Shown here one piece after another: positions 29 through 44,136 of a stretch of DNA of 45,507 nt. The notes below the pieces were generated by a model. The model made no database searches. It saw only the letters and a list, made by a program, of their open reading frames with translations, and had not been told where the DNA came from. Origin of the DNA: Bacillus sp. (in: firmicutes) (lineage in GTDB: Bacteria; Bacillota; Bacilli; Bacillales; Bacillaceae); assembly GCA_031180805.1 (NCBI GenBank), contig JAPSLL010000033.1, positions 1 to 45,507 of the forward strand, written 5' to 3'. Positions within the stretch are counted from its first letter, which is position 1; the number at the start of each line of letters is the position of its first letter. Both the position numbers and the translations under genes were made by a program.

Positions 29-612
29 CATTAGGTTCCTTTTTTAGATGTTGTTTTTAAAACTAATCTGTGTTTTGGAAGGAGTAAAGTTCGAAACTTC
101 TGCTTAAAGGAGCGAACTAGGTGAGACATAAACATGCGTTTTATACTGTACAGTAAGCTAGTATAGCGGAAATTAACCACTGTACTACTTTAAAAAAAGC
201 AGTTATCAAAAACAGCCTTTTATTAAGTTAATTTGTAAATTTAGTATTTGATTAATTAAAGGTACAATCTTAATTCAATAGCGAATTGGAATGGGGTCTG
301 CTTAAATTTAAAAAATCCTCCGAAAATCCTATTAATTTGAAGTTTCTTATAGTTTGAGTTACGATATAATGAATTTACAAAAGGTGATAGAGTTTCGTGA
401 ATAGTAGAAAAGTGATTTTTATTAAGAAGTCTTTTCGATTATTCGTACTTTATTTTGGCAGTCAATGTTCTGCTGAAGATTTTTTTAAAATAGAGAGAAA
501 ATGGAAATGAGATTTCGTAAGGAAAACGCCACACGAAATAAGTTTTCGAGATATAATAGAAGTAAAAACAGATTGGTTGTTTGTAGGGGAATAATGAGTG
601 TTGGAGGACTTT
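29..612. other. Long intergenic region upstream of phoP
   Basis: No supported gene. A TATAAT hexamer at 365-370 and another at 552-557 are candidate -10 elements for phoP, but neither has a convincing -35 at 16-18 bp. A 37-codon open stretch (GTG at 397, stop at 508-510) has an AAAGGTGA-like site upstream but no recognisable product. A 6-bp inverted repeat (88-93 with 113-118) and a 12-bp palindrome (144-155) are present and could be chance. Confidence 0.5.
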
Positions 613-1335
613 ATGAGTAAGAAGATTTTAGTTGTGGATGATGAGCAATCGATTTTAACATTGCTACAGTATAATTTAGAGAAGGCGGGCTATCTCGTCC
701 AAACTGCTATGGATGGTGAAGTAGGGATACAAAGCTGTATAGCTGATGAACCAGATTTAATTGTTTTAGATCTCATGCTTCCAAAAATGGATGGACTTGA
801 GGTTTGTAAGGAACTTCGACAAAGAAAAATAATGGTTCCAATTTTAATGTTAACTGCTAAAGACGATGAATTTGATAAGGTATTAGGTCTTGAACTAGGC
901 GCTGATGATTATATGACTAAGCCATTTAGTCCGAGAGAAGTTGTAGCAAGAGTTAAAGCTATTCTTAGACGATCATCACATACTCATCAAGAAGTAGAAC
1001 TAAAGGAACCTGATGAACCAGAACAAATGATTATCGGTGATTTAAAAGTTTTACCAGAGCATTATGAGGCTTATTATGTGAATGAGAGATTGGATTTAAC
1101 ACCAAAGGAATTTGAGCTTCTTGTTTATTTAGCGAAACATAAAGGAAGAGTCTTGACGCGTGATCAACTTCTTAGTGCTGTTTGGGATTATGACTTTGCT
1201 GGAGATACAAGAATAGTTGATGTTCATATTAGTCACCTCCGCGAAAAAATTGAAAGAAACACGAAAAAGCCGCTTTACATTAAAACAATAAGAGGATTAG
1301 GCTATAAGTTAGAGGAGCCTAAAATGGATGAATAA
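613..1335 (+). CDS. phoP: Phosphate response regulator PhoP (OmpR family)
   Basis: Cytoplasmic transcription factor of the phosphate-starvation two-component system; when phosphorylated by PhoR it binds TTWACA-type direct repeats. The 240-aa product has an N-terminal receiver domain (about 1-120) with the acidic pair D9/D10, phosphoacceptor D53 and the conserved K in TKPF. A C-terminal winged helix (about 145-237) ends in the RGLGYKLE signature. The reading frame is open from a GTG at 598, but GGAGG at 603-607 lies 5 nt before the ATG at 613, and this start gives the 240-residue length known for B. subtilis PhoP. Its stop overlaps the phoR start by 8 nt, so the two are translationally coupled. 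A likely target site for the protein itself lies just past phoR (3108-3146). Confidence 0.97.
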   Translation: MSKKILVVDDEQSILTLLQYNLEKAGYLVQTAMDGEVGIQSCIADEPDLIVLDLMLPKMDGLEVCKELRQRKIMVPILMLTAKDDEFDKVLGLELGADDYMTKPFSPREVVARVKAILRRSSHTHQEVELKEPDEPEQMIIGDLKVLPEHYEAYYVNERLDLTPKEFELLVYLAKHKGRVLTRDQLLSAVWDYDFAGDTRIVDVHISHLREKIERNTKKPLYIKTIRGLGYKLEEPKMDE

Positions 1336-3097
1336 ATTTCGTTCCCGATTGCTTTTTGGATTATTTGTATTAATTGTATCGGTTCTTGTCGGTTTAGGTT
1401 TATTATTAGGACAAATTTTTCAAAACTATTATATTAATTCTTTTAAGGATATGTTACAAAAGGAAGCGAAACTAGCAAAAACTCTTGTGTTTGAGAAAGG
1501 GTTATCGAATGAAGAATCCACAAGTTTTGTCCTTGATTTGAGTGAGTCATTTACTTCGCACATTACAATATTAAATGAGAATGACGAGGTAATTTATGAT
1601 GCAGGGCAAATAGAAAGGGCACATGATCATCATCAAATGATTGAAAACGTCCTACCGGTTATGAAAAACAAAGAAGAAGGACATTATGCAACAGATCCGA
1701 CTAATAAAATCGGCTATTTTGGGTTACCGATTATTGAGGGAAATACGTATAAAGGGATTGTCCTAGTTAACACTTCAATTGAAGAACTAAATAAGATGAT
1801 TCAACAAATGTGGATATTGCTAGTCGTGAGTTTAAGTTTAGCTTTTATCATTATCCTTTTTATTGGCGTAAGAATTACACGACAATATACTCGCCCTATT
1901 GAGTCTGCCACAAAGGTTGCTATGGAGCTTGCGAAGGGAAATTATAAGGCACGCACTTATGAGGATCATCTCGATGAAACAGGAATGCTTAGTCAATATA
2001 TAAATATACTAGCAAGGAATCTTCAAGATATGACACGTGCTCAAGAAATGCAGCAGGACCGTCTCCAAACATTAATTGAAAACATGGGAAGCGGCTTAAT
2101 TTTAATTGATGGAAGAGGCTATATTAATTTAGTTAATCGAGCTTATAAAGAGCTATTTGAAGTGGAATCTGCAAAATTTCTTTATCAGTTATATTATGAT
2201 GCGTTTACTCACAATGAAATTATTGAGCTTGTTGAAGAAATCTTTATGACTGAAGTAAAAGTAAGAAAGCAGCTCCAGCTACCGTTAAATATAGAATTTA
2301 AGCATTTTGAGGTATATGGAGCTCCGATAATCGGAACGAATGATGAGTGGAAGGGAATCGTCCTTGTCTTCCATGATATAACTGAATTGAAAAAATTAGA
2401 GCAAATGAGGAAGGACTTTGTTGCAAATGTTTCTCATGAACTCAAAACTCCAATAACATCAATCAAAGGGTTTAGCGAAACTTTGCTAGACGGAGCGCTC
2501 AATGATAGGGAAACTGCTGAATATTTTTTATCGATTATTCTTAAAGAAAGTGATCGATTACAAACATTAATCCAAGATTTATTAGATTTATCAAAAATTG
2601 AACAGCAAGGCTTTAAACTATCTATTCAAGCTTGTGATGTAAAAGAAATATTAGAGGATATAGAAGTCATCCTTAAAGGAAAAGCAAAAGAAAAAGAAAT
2701 AGAATTAACGTATACCGTTCCAGAGGGCTTTTTCTTTGTTGAAGGGGATTTGTATCGATTAAAGCAAATTTTTATAAATTTAATTAACAATGCATTAACG
2801 TATACACCAAAGGGTGGCTCAGTTCATGTTCAAGTAGAGAAAGATGCTGGAGCTGTTATTGTTACAGTTTCTGATACAGGAATTGGAATAAAATCAGAAG
2901 AAATTCCGCGAATATTTGAACGTTTTTATCGAGTTGATCGTGCCCGAAGTAGAAATTCTGGAGGAACGGGTTTAGGATTAGCAATTGTTAAGCATTTAGT
3001 GGAGGCTCATAAAGGCTTAATAACAGTGAATAGTCAACTTGGTGAAGGAACTACTTTTACTGTAAGATTAAATGAAAAGTTTGAGTCAGAAATCTAA
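1328..3097 (+). CDS. phoR: Phosphate sensor histidine kinase PhoR
   Basis: Membrane sensor kinase that phosphorylates PhoP under phosphate limitation. Domain order in the 589-aa protein: transmembrane helix 1 (about 8-30), an extracytoplasmic sensor segment (about 31-160), transmembrane helix 2 (about 162-183), HAMP, PAS (about 245-355), HisKA with the phosphoacceptor H370 in VSHELKTP, and HATPase with N, DTGIGI and GTGLGL boxes. The length is close to the 579 residues of B. subtilis PhoR. The ATG overlaps the end of phoP by 8 nt, and the ribosome binding site AGAGGAG (1311-1317) lies inside phoP. No terminator follows directly; the first one is at 3212-3247, after a separate promoter-like block. 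Confidence 0.96.
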   Translation: MNKFRSRLLFGLFVLIVSVLVGLGLLLGQIFQNYYINSFKDMLQKEAKLAKTLVFEKGLSNEESTSFVLDLSESFTSHITILNENDEVIYDAGQIERAHDHHQMIENVLPVMKNKEEGHYATDPTNKIGYFGLPIIEGNTYKGIVLVNTSIEELNKMIQQMWILLVVSLSLAFIIILFIGVRITRQYTRPIESATKVAMELAKGNYKARTYEDHLDETGMLSQYINILARNLQDMTRAQEMQQDRLQTLIENMGSGLILIDGRGYINLVNRAYKELFEVESAKFLYQLYYDAFTHNEIIELVEEIFMTEVKVRKQLQLPLNIEFKHFEVYGAPIIGTNDEWKGIVLVFHDITELKKLEQMRKDFVANVSHELKTPITSIKGFSETLLDGALNDRETAEYFLSIILKESDRLQTLIQDLLDLSKIEQQGFKLSIQACDVKEILEDIEVILKGKAKEKEIELTYTVPEGFFFVEGDLYRLKQIFINLINNALTYTPKGGSVHVQVEKDAGAVIVTVSDTGIGIKSEEIPRIFERFYRVDRARSRNSGGTGLGLAIVKHLVEAHKGLITVNSQLGEGTTFTVRLNEKFESEI

Positions 3098-3107
3098 ATG
3101 GTTTAAA

Positions 3108-3158
3108 TTTCGACATACTTTACAAATAATTTACATGAGGTTTATCCTATCTTAATAT
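3108..3158 (+). promoter_or_regulatory. Pho box (PhoP-binding repeats) with promoter
   Basis: Four hexamers lie exactly 11 bp apart: TTTCGA (3108), TTTACA (3119), TTTACA (3130) and TTTATC (3141). The middle two match the PhoP consensus TT(A/C/T)A(C/T)A fully, the fourth at 5 of 6 and the first at 4 of 6. A -10 hexamer TAATAT (3153-3158) follows, placing the boxes at about -57 to -19 from a predicted start near 3165. That is the usual position for PhoP-activated promoters in B. subtilis. The 3130 box is also a 17-bp-spaced -35. What it drives (short RNA, hflKC or both) is inference. Confidence 0.6.
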
Positions 3159-3164
3159 ACAGTT

Positions 3165-3247
3165 GATATGATACAAAGTGAAAACCCCTTCATCCAAGGA
3201 GCCAATCTTTTGGACGAGAGCGTAAAGCTCTCGTCCCTTTTTTTTAT
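3165..3247 (+). ncRNA. Candidate short RNA or attenuated leader downstream of the Pho box
   Basis: From the predicted start to the terminator is about 80 nt. It contains three successive small hairpins: CCTT/AAGG near 3187-3200, CCAA/TTGG near 3202-3213, and a 10-bp GC-rich terminator stem (3212-3221 with 3227-3236) followed by eight or more T. It could be a free small RNA, an attenuator leader for hflKC, or only the end of the phoPR transcript. A 28-codon open frame (ATG 3168, stop 3254) runs through it but has no ribosome binding site. I recognise no RNA family. Confidence 0.35.
3212..3247 (+). terminator. Rho-independent terminator between phoR and hflK
   Basis: A perfect 10-bp stem (GGACGAGAGC with GCTCTCGTCC) closes a 5-nt loop and is followed by a T run from 3238. 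It separates phoPR from hflKC. No T-box or riboswitch motif precedes it. Confidence 0.85.
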
Positions 3248-3346
3248 GCAGTAAGATTTTTCTATTACTGAGTAATATTTGAAACTTTCTCCGATGAAAT
3301 ACGTATGAAAGGTGAGGTAAAAGTACGTAAAGAAAGTAGGGGTAGG

Positions 3347-4375
3347 ATGTTAAGTATAAAGAGAATTTTTACCATCATCGGATTTGCAATACTGCTTATT
3401 TTACTGTCGATTATTGTATTTACATCTTGGTATACAGTTGATGAATCCGAACAGGCGGTAATGATTACACTCGGTAAAGTTGAGGAAGGTGTAAGTGAGC
3501 CTGGTTTACATTTAAAATATCCATGGCCAATTCAATCTGTAGAAATCCTATCAAAGGAAACATTTAGTTTACAATTTGGATATAAAGAATCAAAAGACGG
3601 AGAAGTAAAGGATTTTCCAAAAGAGACTAAAATGATTACCGGTGATGAAAACATTGTTTTAGCAGATATGGTTGTCCAATGGAAAATAACAGAGCCTGGT
3701 AAATATTTATTTAATGCTGAAAATCCGAAAGAAATATTAGGGGATGCAACATCAGCATCTTTAAGAAGTATTATTGGTAGCTCAACAATAGATGATGCTT
3801 TAACATCTGGTAAGGTGGAAATCGAAAAACAAGTACAAGAGCTTTTATCAACACTTATAAAAAATTATGATATCGGAATTACAATATTAGCTGTTAAATT
3901 GCAGGATGTTGACCTTCCTAATGAAGAGGTGCGTAAGGCGTTTACAAATGTAACGGATGCTCGTGAAACAATGAACACAAGGAAAAATGAAGCAATGAAA
4001 TATCGTAATCAACGGACTGAAGAGGCTAAAGGGGAAAAGGATGCAATTATTCATGCGGCAAATGGAGATAAAGCATCCCGTATTGAAGAAGCCCGGGGCG
4101 ATGTCGCACAATTTAATGCTATTTATAACGAGTATGTCAATAATAAAGACATAACGAAAACAAGACTTGTGCTAGAAACAATTGACCAAGTATTACCTAA
4201 TGCAGAAATTTATATTATGGAAGATGACGGTAATACAATGAAATACTTACCAATAAAAGAAACAACTACAAACAAGATGGTAGTACCTGAAGAAGAGAAA
4301 CCATCAGATACGTCAGAGCCATCAGATGCATCAGATGCATCTGATAGTAAAGGAAGTGAAACAAATGGCCGATGA
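3347..4375 (+). CDS. hflK: HflK-like SPFH/band-7 membrane protein
   Basis: Membrane-anchored SPFH-family protein; HflK forms a complex with HflC that surrounds and modulates the FtsH protease in proteobacteria, and the same role is inferred here. The 342-aa product has one N-terminal membrane helix (about 7-27), the SPFH domain starting at YTVDESEQAV with GLH and PWPIQ motifs, a charged coiled-coil stretch rich in E/A/K, and an unusual C-terminal tail of repeated S-D-A/T units encoded by near-identical 9-nt repeats (about 4304-4345). The frame is open from an ATG at 3305, but that codon has no ribosome binding site; ATG 3347 follows AGGGG at 3338-3342 and begins just before the helix, so it is preferred with moderate certainty. 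The gene overlaps hflC by 11 nt. This pair is not found between phoR and polA in B. subtilis. Confidence 0.85.
   Translation: MLSIKRIFTIIGFAILLILLSIIVFTSWYTVDESEQAVMITLGKVEEGVSEPGLHLKYPWPIQSVEILSKETFSLQFGYKESKDGEVKDFPKETKMITGDENIVLADMVVQWKITEPGKYLFNAENPKEILGDATSASLRSIIGSSTIDDALTSGKVEIEKQVQELLSTLIKNYDIGITILAVKLQDVDLPNEEVRKAFTNVTDARETMNTRKNEAMKYRNQRTEEAKGEKDAIIHAANGDKASRIEEARGDVAQFNAIYNEYVNNKDITKTRLVLETIDQVLPNAEIYIMEDDGNTMKYLPIKETTTNKMVVPEEEKPSDTSEPSDASDASDSKGSETNGR
4304..4345 (+). repeat. Tandem ~9-nt repeats in the 3' end of hflK
   Basis: Units of the type (G)CATCAGAT recur in frame and encode a Ser/Asp/Ala-rich tail (SDTSEPSDASDASDSK). The GATGCATC palindromes inside could allow slippage, so tail length may vary between strains. 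Confidence 0.7.
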
Positions 4376-16447: not shown

Positions 16448-16725
16448 TAATTAAAGATTAAACAGTTATGATAAGGACAATAGTTTGTATATACGGTTTT
16501 CAGAGAGGGAAGGTTTGCTGGGAGCTTCCTAACACGATAAACAAACTTACCACCTTTGAACTTCAGTTGTGAACAGTTTTCTTAGTAATAACTGACGGTC
16601 ACCCCGTTATCGAATGAAAGCCAAGCTATTCTTGTAAATATTAATAGTTTGGGAATTAGGGTGGAACCACGATCCATTGACTTGAGTATAACTCGTCCCT
16701 TTATTAGGGGACGAGTTTATTTATT
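16448..16725 (+). promoter_or_regulatory. T-box leader (threonine)
   Basis: tRNA-sensing antitermination leader. Visible elements are an AGAGAGGG block (16502-16509), a GCTGGGAGC loop, a specifier ACC (threonine, 16549-16551) inside TTACCACC, the T-box AGGGTGGAACCACG (16658-16671) and a terminator. TGGA in the T-box would pair with the acceptor end of uncharged tRNA-Thr. Uncharged tRNA should stop termination and switch on thrS. Confidence 0.93.
16690..16725 (+). terminator. T-box terminator upstream of thrS
   Basis: AACTCGTCCC (16690-16699) pairs with GGGACGAGTT (16708-16717) and is followed by a T-rich run. It is the regulated terminator of the threonine T-box. Confidence 0.9.
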
Positions 16726-18924: not shown

Positions 18925-19048
18925 TTAAATAAAGAAGAAGCACCCGCTTCTCACCTGATTGACACATCCGATTGTAGTTGGCAGGTTACGATGAACTCTT
19001 AAAGAATACAATCGTAGTGTGGGTGTTTTGTGCATCCACACTTTTTTA
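18925..19048 (+). promoter_or_regulatory. Ribosomal protein L20 leader
   Basis: Autoregulatory leader in front of infC-rpmI-rplT. The AAGAAGCACCCGCTTCTCACCTG start, the GGCAGGTT partner strand, GTGTGGGTGTTTTGTGCATCC and a terminator match the Firmicute L20 leader layout. Free L20 is known to bind such leaders and promote termination. The terminator stem is 19017-19025 with 19033-19041, followed by six T. Confidence 0.88.
19016..19048 (+). terminator. Attenuator terminator of the L20 leader
   Basis: GTGTGGGTG pairs with CATCCACAC (one G-T pair) and is followed by TTTTTT. Confidence 0.85.
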
Positions 19049-19131
19049 TTTTTCGTAAATAAAAAAACCAATCAACAAATCTGGATTTAATTATTACTAT
19101 TCAGTTTATTAAACCTTGGAGGTGGCTAATT

Positions 19132-25142: not shown

Positions 25143-25426
25143 GAAATTACATAAGAATGAAACGTTGACAGAGAATAGTAATTTACCGTTCGTCCAATCA
25201 GGGAGAAATGTCATAGACTGAAAGCATTTCTGGATAGAAGTAAATGAATTCACCTCTCGAGTTGACACTTGGACCGTTAAGGAGAAATTCATTTTTCTTG
25301 AACGTAAAGGTGCTCCGGTTTTTACCGTTATGGAAATGAAGTGAGTCGAATATTTTTTTAAGTTTCGACTAACAAGGGTGGTAACGCGATATCAACTCGT
25401 CCCTTTATTGGGGCGAGTTTTTTATT
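25143..25426 (+). promoter_or_regulatory. T-box leader (phenylalanine)
   Basis: tRNA-sensing antitermination leader. AGGGAGAAATG and GACTG blocks are followed by the specifier TTC (phenylalanine, 25249-25251) in GAATTCACC, the T-box AGGGTGGTAACGCG (25375-25388) and a terminator (25394-25403 with 25410-25419). TGGT in the T-box would match a tRNA with discriminator A, as expected for tRNA-Phe. Confidence 0.93.
25393..25426 (+). terminator. T-box terminator upstream of pheS
   Basis: AACTCGTCCC pairs with GGGGCGAGTT (one G-T pair) and six T follow. The stem is nearly the same as the thrS terminator. Confidence 0.9.
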
Positions 25427-43796: not shown

Positions 43797-43894
43797 ATTG
43801 AAATTTTTGTGGTATTGCTAAAGTGCTTGCGCTTTTCATTAAAGTTTGATAATCTTGTTAGTAATTTCATAGTATGATCGTTATTTATTGAATG

Positions 43895-44136
43895 AAGGTA
43901 GAGGTGCGAAATTCAAGAGTAGCCAGTTTGAGGAGGATGGTCTCCAATGAAAGCTGGTGAAAGGGAATTTTGCCGAAGCTGTTATAGTACCATTGCTATA
44001 ATGGCTGGTTTTACATTTAACAGATGTAAAACTGTCAAGAAAATGTAATTTCTTGGAGAGCTATCTCATTGTGAAAGCGAAGTTTATTATTTTCGTTTTG
44101 TATGGCAATGGGATATTAATATCTCATTGCCTTTTT
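43895..44136 (+). promoter_or_regulatory. Lysine riboswitch (L box)
   Basis: Lysine-binding leader of lysC. It has conserved blocks GAGGTGCGAAATTCAAGAGT, AGCCAG...GAGGA, TGAAAGCTGGTGAAAGGG and TTGCCGAAGC. P1 can form between AGGTAG (43896-43901) and CTATCT (44061-44066). The overlapping strand TATCTCATTG (44062-44071) can instead pair with CAATGGGATA (44106-44115), the left arm of the terminator. Lysine should thus favour P1 and termination. Confidence 0.94.
44104..44136 (+). terminator. Terminator of the lysine riboswitch
   Basis: GGCAATGGGATA (44104-44115) pairs with TATCTCATTGCC (44120-44131) with one G-T pair, followed by five T. Confidence 0.93.

Follow-up and report, generated by a model that had tools for sequence, protein, structure and literature searches.

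A putative PhoP-dependent small RNA behind phoR, very probably an ortholog of PhoS, and its predicted pairing with the phoP leader

Comparative analysis indicates that the 45,507-nucleotide stretch of Bacillaceae DNA considered here (the window) very probably carries, between phoR and hflK, a genuine and conserved ortholog of the small RNA PhoS in another genus of the family. We are confident that this is the phoS gene of the genome, i.e., that it encodes a PhoP-activated RNA of ∼67 nt behind phoR which pairs with the phoP leader and acts in positive feedback. According to the passages on PhoS in three later papers (PMC13001227, PMC12101431, PMC13340098), the RNA was published in 2024 by Li et al. 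for B. velezensis FZB42 and B. subtilis; its level is raised through PhoP in low phosphate, and it enhances translation of phoP in that an inhibitory structure of the 5' UTR is kept from forming. One of these papers, a 2025 review, describes in its text a 66-nt sRNA from the phoR 3' UTR with its own promoter, and differs in a figure legend, where PhoS is said to stabilise phoR mRNA (PMC12101431). Fan et al. 2015 (PMC4634765) name neither phoR nor phoP in their main text, as judged by a term search. To what the reviews relate of the work of Li et al. 2024 we add an ortholog in another genus, the spread of the RNA, and co-variation of RNA and leader.

Results

The start of phoP was placed at ATG 613 because of the Shine-Dalgarno sequence and of where aligned relatives start. 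The genes of the window, which we take by homology to be phoP, phoR, hflK, hflC and polA in this order, leave a gap of 207 bases between phoR and hflK (frames as listed) that contains the hexamers and the terminator (Table 1), and the RNA follows phoR directly and on the same strand, as PhoS does. Elsewhere in the window, the leaders at 16459-16703, 18926-19053, 25156-25407 and 43891-44071 correspond in Rfam to two T-boxes, an L20 leader and a lysine riboswitch, all of them ordinary.

Table 1. Positions of observed and predicted features in the window.
Feature	Position	Strand	Basis and remarks
Predicted phoP promoter -10 (TATAAT)	552..557	+	Sequence; mRNA start presumably near 564
Small-RNA-complementary site CAGATTGGTTGTTTGTAGGGGA in phoP leader	569..590	+	Duplex computation; 23-44 nt ahead of start codon
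phoP Shine-Dalgarno sequence TTGGAGG	601..607	+	Sequence
phoP (from ATG 613)	613..1335	+	Mechanical ORF starts at GTG 598
phoR	1328..3097	+	ORF; relatives by tblastn
TTTCGA half-site	3108..3113	+	Optional extra (see text)
Pho box 1 TTTACA	3119..3124	+	Sequence and relatives
Pho box 2 TTTACA	3130..3135	+	Sequence and relatives
Pho box 3 TTTATC	3141..3146	+	Sequence and relatives
Pho box 4 TTAATA	3152..3157	+	Sequence and relatives; exact 11-bp phase; absent from the preliminary description
Extended -10 TGATATGAT	3164..3172	+	Conserved, 9 bp past box 4; TG 3164-3165, TATGAT 3167-3172
Predicted small RNA, putative PhoS ortholog	3178..3244	+	Model R1 match; predicted ends
Core ACCCCTTCATC	3184..3194	+	Pairs with phoP leader jointly with bases up to 3209 (computed duplex)
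Terminator hairpin and T run	3212..3244	+	10-bp stem 3212-3236

The preliminary description of this DNA, made from the sequence alone, had named hexamers at 3108 (TTTCGA), 3119 (TTTACA), 3130 (TTTACA) and 3141 (TTTATC). These are correct, and the idea of four boxes in 11-bp phase holds, but the register has to be shifted, the array consisting of the boxes at 3119, 3130, 3141 and 3152. The -10 element then seen at 3153 (TAATAT) overlaps the fourth box, which is conserved in aligned relatives, and because the conserved -10 is TATGAT at 3167-3172, transcription presumably starts near 3178-3180 rather than near 3165 as had been assumed. TTTCGA at 3108 is kept in the genus only (exact in 16 of 21 genus members and in none of nine loci from other genera) and is therefore considered an optional extra. 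The aligned relatives exhibit TTTACA, TTTACA, TTTAt and TTAATA in 11-bp steps, followed after 9 bp by the -10, which is usually preceded by TG, and at all 62 strong RNA matches examined (see below) none of 200 shuffles of the 100 nt upstream matched the observed box score. Genome-wide, a loose three-box pattern is unspecific (13 matches versus 11 for the reversed pattern), and it is therefore conservation and position on which the case for the boxes depends. At pstS (L122; gene assigned by eye), the promoter in the same genome exhibits TTTACA, TTTACA, TTAAAA and TTAATA in the same steps with a -10 nine bases on. The small-RNA gene is thus, like that of PhoS, one with its own predicted promoter bearing PhoP boxes. 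For B. subtilis, a 2018 review (PMC6232261) states, where it treats this region, that PhoP~P binds behind phoR and that the boxes there augment phoPR expression, and calls the mechanism of this effect unknown. Several phased TTTACA-type boxes were also observed at L117 (G000 C32:7510-7546) by a divergent frame that resembles, by eye, a Na/phosphate cotransporter, which may represent a further Pho promoter.

Model R1, built from 33 distinct sequences including that of the window, matches positions 3177-3243 with 89.3 bits; nucleotides A7-C18 of the RNA are invariant in all 33 training sequences, and its core, ACCCCUUCAUC, has its complement in the phoP leader. The strong terminator recognised earlier at 3212-3247 is borne out as a 10-bp stem with a T run behind it, and each of the ten stem pairs exhibits changes in both arms, with 97.2% of cells paired, in an alignment that was fitted to the structure and included the weak matches too. 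Inspection of the phoR-hflK and phoR-polA gaps across relatives, suggested earlier as a check, found the boxes kept and the hairpin retained with changes on both sides of its stem. From the -10 and the hairpin a length of 67 nt is predicted, replacing the initial estimate of ∼80 nt; published PhoS has 66 nt. Over the small-RNA stretch no Rfam family reached its gathering score, permissive thresholds yielding sub-threshold matches only, and a match to ncr1241 (RF02451; 30 bits versus a gathering score of 60) was rejected as too low and is limited to the hairpin region. Short frames are present in the RNA, and a conserved peptide is unlikely because the letters past the core vary (L033, L035, L037, L039). 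Locus L033 also contains, at 1417-1486 of the + strand, an Rfam match to Bacillaceae-1 RNA (32.8 bits versus a cut-off of 35) on the strand opposite to the PhoS-like RNA.

Reading of phoP leaders revealed a G-rich site complementary to the core, perfectly so over 15 nt in G112, and the pairing with the phoP 5' UTR that is described for PhoS is obtained here by computation. In the window, the duplex of RNA and phoP leader has -23.3 kcal/mol (z -4.2; none of 200 shuffles as good) versus at best -16.4 among 38 ORF leaders as called; the phoP leader yields -13.0 when taken at the mechanical start 598, and the pstS leader pairs weakly with the RNA (-10.0 kcal/mol). When each genome's own RNA was combined with its own phoP leader (dinucleotide shuffles, Shine-Dalgarno sequence excluded), p < 0.05 was found in 48 of 63 genomes with a median z of -3.3. 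This set includes five of the 24 named records introduced below; it leaves out G197 (L285; no recognised core) as well as L290 and L298, the genomes of which are present as L300 and L301. Pairing is not significant in the other 15 genomes, including G021, G022, G015 and G030 of the window family, and likewise in B. atrophaeus (L101). Among 27 family representatives, hand-picked one per family, 22 exhibit significant pairing (the exceptions being f2, f7, f13, f19 and f37), f38 (G072) being counted among them with a long duplex at an unusual place; permuting the leaders among these 27 families equaled or beat the real total once in 20,000 trials. Where the duplex reaches -14 kcal/mol or better (54 of the 63 pairs, long duplexes trimmed to 24 nt), the site ends a median of 22 nt (range 15-31) ahead of the start codon and, in the 48 pairs with a predicted -10, begins a median of 6 nt past the predicted message start. 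Blocking the site increases access to the Shine-Dalgarno sequence by 0.197 versus 0.135 in the shuffled control, a small gain (Wilcoxon p 0.009, calculated on related rows).

Natural co-changes across families support direct pairing of PhoS with the phoP leader. The RNA of G303 reads AUCCGA and its leader UCGGAU, the own core reaching -25.2 versus -16.3 for the typical core, and in G056 CCCCAAC in the RNA is accompanied by GUUGGGG in the leader (z -5.6). Two genomes of f22 co-change too, by a smaller margin; in the third (L319) and in G082 the typical core pairs slightly better than the own core. No pairing with the RNA was found for hflK leaders (n = 27; median z 0.02, one below -2) or polA leaders (n = 14; median z 0.17), nor at the phoP leaders of ten RNA-free genomes (simple letter shuffles), where GGGG is absent from the site in all ten versus present in 40 of the 63 genomes with the RNA.

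A DNA search with positions 3000-3420 matched 43 of 60 genomes, namely the genome itself, all 20 of the genus, all 15 of the family and 7 of 24 from the rest of the order, the match in most of the listed relatives spanning boxes to terminator only. Within the order, model R1 finds a match in 151 of 299 genomes and in 53 of 117 genera, a count that misses diverged copies and includes some weak false positives since L137 and L147 are bare terminators; the spread is thus roughly half of the sampled order. In a class-wide draw, 22 of 299 genomes match, 16 of them in the order and 6 weakly. From the loci set, 69 of 93 matches were examined, 22 strong near-duplicates and two weak second matches being left out. 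In all 62 strong ones (≥44 bits), of which 30 had played no part in training, the match start is preceded at 47-58 nt by a four-box array, and phoR lies immediately upstream in the same orientation, as judged by tblastn for 61 and by its frame for the window; both phoR and boxes are lacking at the seven weak ones (<37 bits), namely in six genomes outside the order and at a second match in G028. Twenty further matches comprise the two bare terminators and 18 located behind phoR, some with degenerate boxes. Among the latter, L131, L133 and L144 (G217, G249, G082) have the core altered to CCCTTTCATC or CCTTTCATC and no significant phoP pairing; promoter and target seem to decay together in these. 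An exact pattern occurs in 24 named records, all of them Bacillus, including B. spizizenii, B. velezensis, B. atrophaeus and B. pumilus. The B. velezensis locus (L099; R1 match of 67.7 bits) lies behind phoR and was equated with PhoS by this place, so identified being the same RNA as in the window. The gene 3' of the RNA varies among genomes between hflK and polA, with RNA and terminator persisting.

Twenty of the 148 R1-negative genomes were inspected by eye. Five have kept boxes and a diverged core (L150-L153, L159), in four the boxes precede an RNA that is different and longer (L155-L158), nothing recognisable was seen by eye in nine (L154, L160-L167), and two exhibit no clear phoR ortholog (L168, L169). 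The longer RNAs of L155-L158 (G063, G040, G060, G037) likewise lie behind phoR, with GGTTTCATC near the start in some and CATCCCCTT ahead of the terminator; these variant RNAs do not pair significantly with their own phoP leaders.

Discussion

Comparison among relatives supports the predicted boxes, promoter layout, RNA, terminator and place as well as the computed pairing and its co-variation, and suggests how the element might work. Upon phosphate shortage, PhoP~P would bind to the four boxes and the RNA would be transcribed, the unpaired C-rich 5' half of which would then pair with the phoP leader near the predicted 5' end of the message. The site ends ∼22 nt ahead of the start codon and is therefore probably too distant to block the ribosome; pairing most likely prevents a fold in which the leader covers the Shine-Dalgarno sequence, and the 5' end of the message may in addition be protected from RNase J1, so that more PhoP and PhoR would be made and a positive feedback loop closed. 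We infer that regulation is the same in this organism; where the RNA and the phoP message begin and end is likewise predicted, as would be any 5'-end protection. The earlier main idea of a Pho-driven, short terminated RNA right behind phoR is thus supported by boxes and promoter layout and by what the treatments of this region and of PhoS in PMC6232261 and PMC12101431 report; the accompanying remark that no such Pho-controlled small RNA had been described is outdated by the 2024 publication of Li et al.

One may ask whether the boxes are indeed those of PhoP. The related regulator WalR has the consensus TGTWAH-N5-TGTWAH, which the boxes fit on the other strand, the reverse complement of TTTACA being TGTAAA. 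An assignment to WalR is nonetheless very improbable, considering that the four boxes are oriented as in a PhoP-activated promoter with the same layout as at pstS in this genome, and that they lie behind phoR, where PhoP~P binding is reported in B. subtilis (PMC6232261, as treated there). It also appears quite improbable that the boxes act as DNA, with PhoP~P at the 3' end helping the phoP promoter, e.g., by looping, and the RNA a by-product: even with the mechanism called unknown in that part of the 2018 review (PMC6232261), the invariant RNA core, the co-varying terminator and the matched leader sites would then have no explanation. The preliminary description had also envisaged an attenuated leader feeding hflKC, in keeping with a terminator that sits between promoter and hflK; the presence of polA instead of hflK in many genomes that share the RNA and terminator, the lack of pairing with the 27 hflK leaders and the fact that no conserved alternative fold was seen render this exceedingly unlikely.

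If the RNA does pair with the phoP leader, the sign of its effect could be the opposite, lowering phoP in negative feedback as described, in the account of PMC7398697, for OppZ and CarZ of Vibrio cholerae, 3' UTR-derived RNAs that repress their own operon's message by pairing. We would hardly expect this with a site ending a median of 22 nt ahead of the start codon, with boxes that augment phoPR expression in B. subtilis (PMC6232261, in part) and with a PhoS that, as related in PMC13001227 and PMC12101431, enhances phoP translation. It is less improbable, yet still unlikely, that the RNA acts mainly on other messages, with phoP a minor target or one among several: near-invariance of the core extends to genomes with differing phoP leaders, five family representatives retain the RNA with no detectable phoP pairing, and C-rich sRNAs like RoxS have several targets, as outlined in PMC5419742. 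Against this, a search of 28 chosen genomes for exact complements of the core (pattern GATGAAGGGGT) hit 118 places, 28 of them the RNA itself (48 for the reversed pattern, a control biased by codon use), and among the 80 of 90 non-RNA sites read the ORFs formed ten related clusters, in none of which the site precedes the start codon, the search detecting exact 11-base matches only.

Activation of phoP by PhoS through its leader would account for why PhoP boxes at the phoPR 3' end matter for full induction, and the natural co-changes provide this loop with a comparative test. We tentatively suggest that the PhoS-phoP leader loop is an old feature of the order and that PhoS was retargeted or replaced in the five non-pairing families and at L155-L158 with their longer, different RNA, or else that a second conserved target explains the near-invariant core. 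Because the stretch reaches no Rfam gathering score, an R1-type model could serve to annotate the RNA in many species.

The system most closely resembled is PhoS of B. velezensis and B. subtilis, with its place in the phoR 3' UTR, its own PhoP-stimulated promoter, its phoP 5' UTR pairing and its 66 nt versus ∼67 nt predicted here; the window differs in belonging to another genus of the family and in having hflK rather than polA as the 3' gene. The position of the pairing site and the gain in Shine-Dalgarno access fit activation as by RoxS on yflS in B. subtilis, where, in the description given in PMC5419742, an sRNA bound to the very 5' end keeps RNase J1 off and aids ribosome binding. RoxS is likewise a C-rich, activating sRNA whose binding site lies close to the very 5' end, ahead of the ribosome site, but it has another sequence and other regulators, and its target is not its own operon. 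The likeness to ncr1241 (RF02451) concerns a similar terminator hairpin. OppZ and CarZ likewise come from an operon's 3' end and pair with the message of the same operon, but they are, as far as the account in PMC7398697 goes, processed by RNase E, devoid of a promoter of their own, and repressing.
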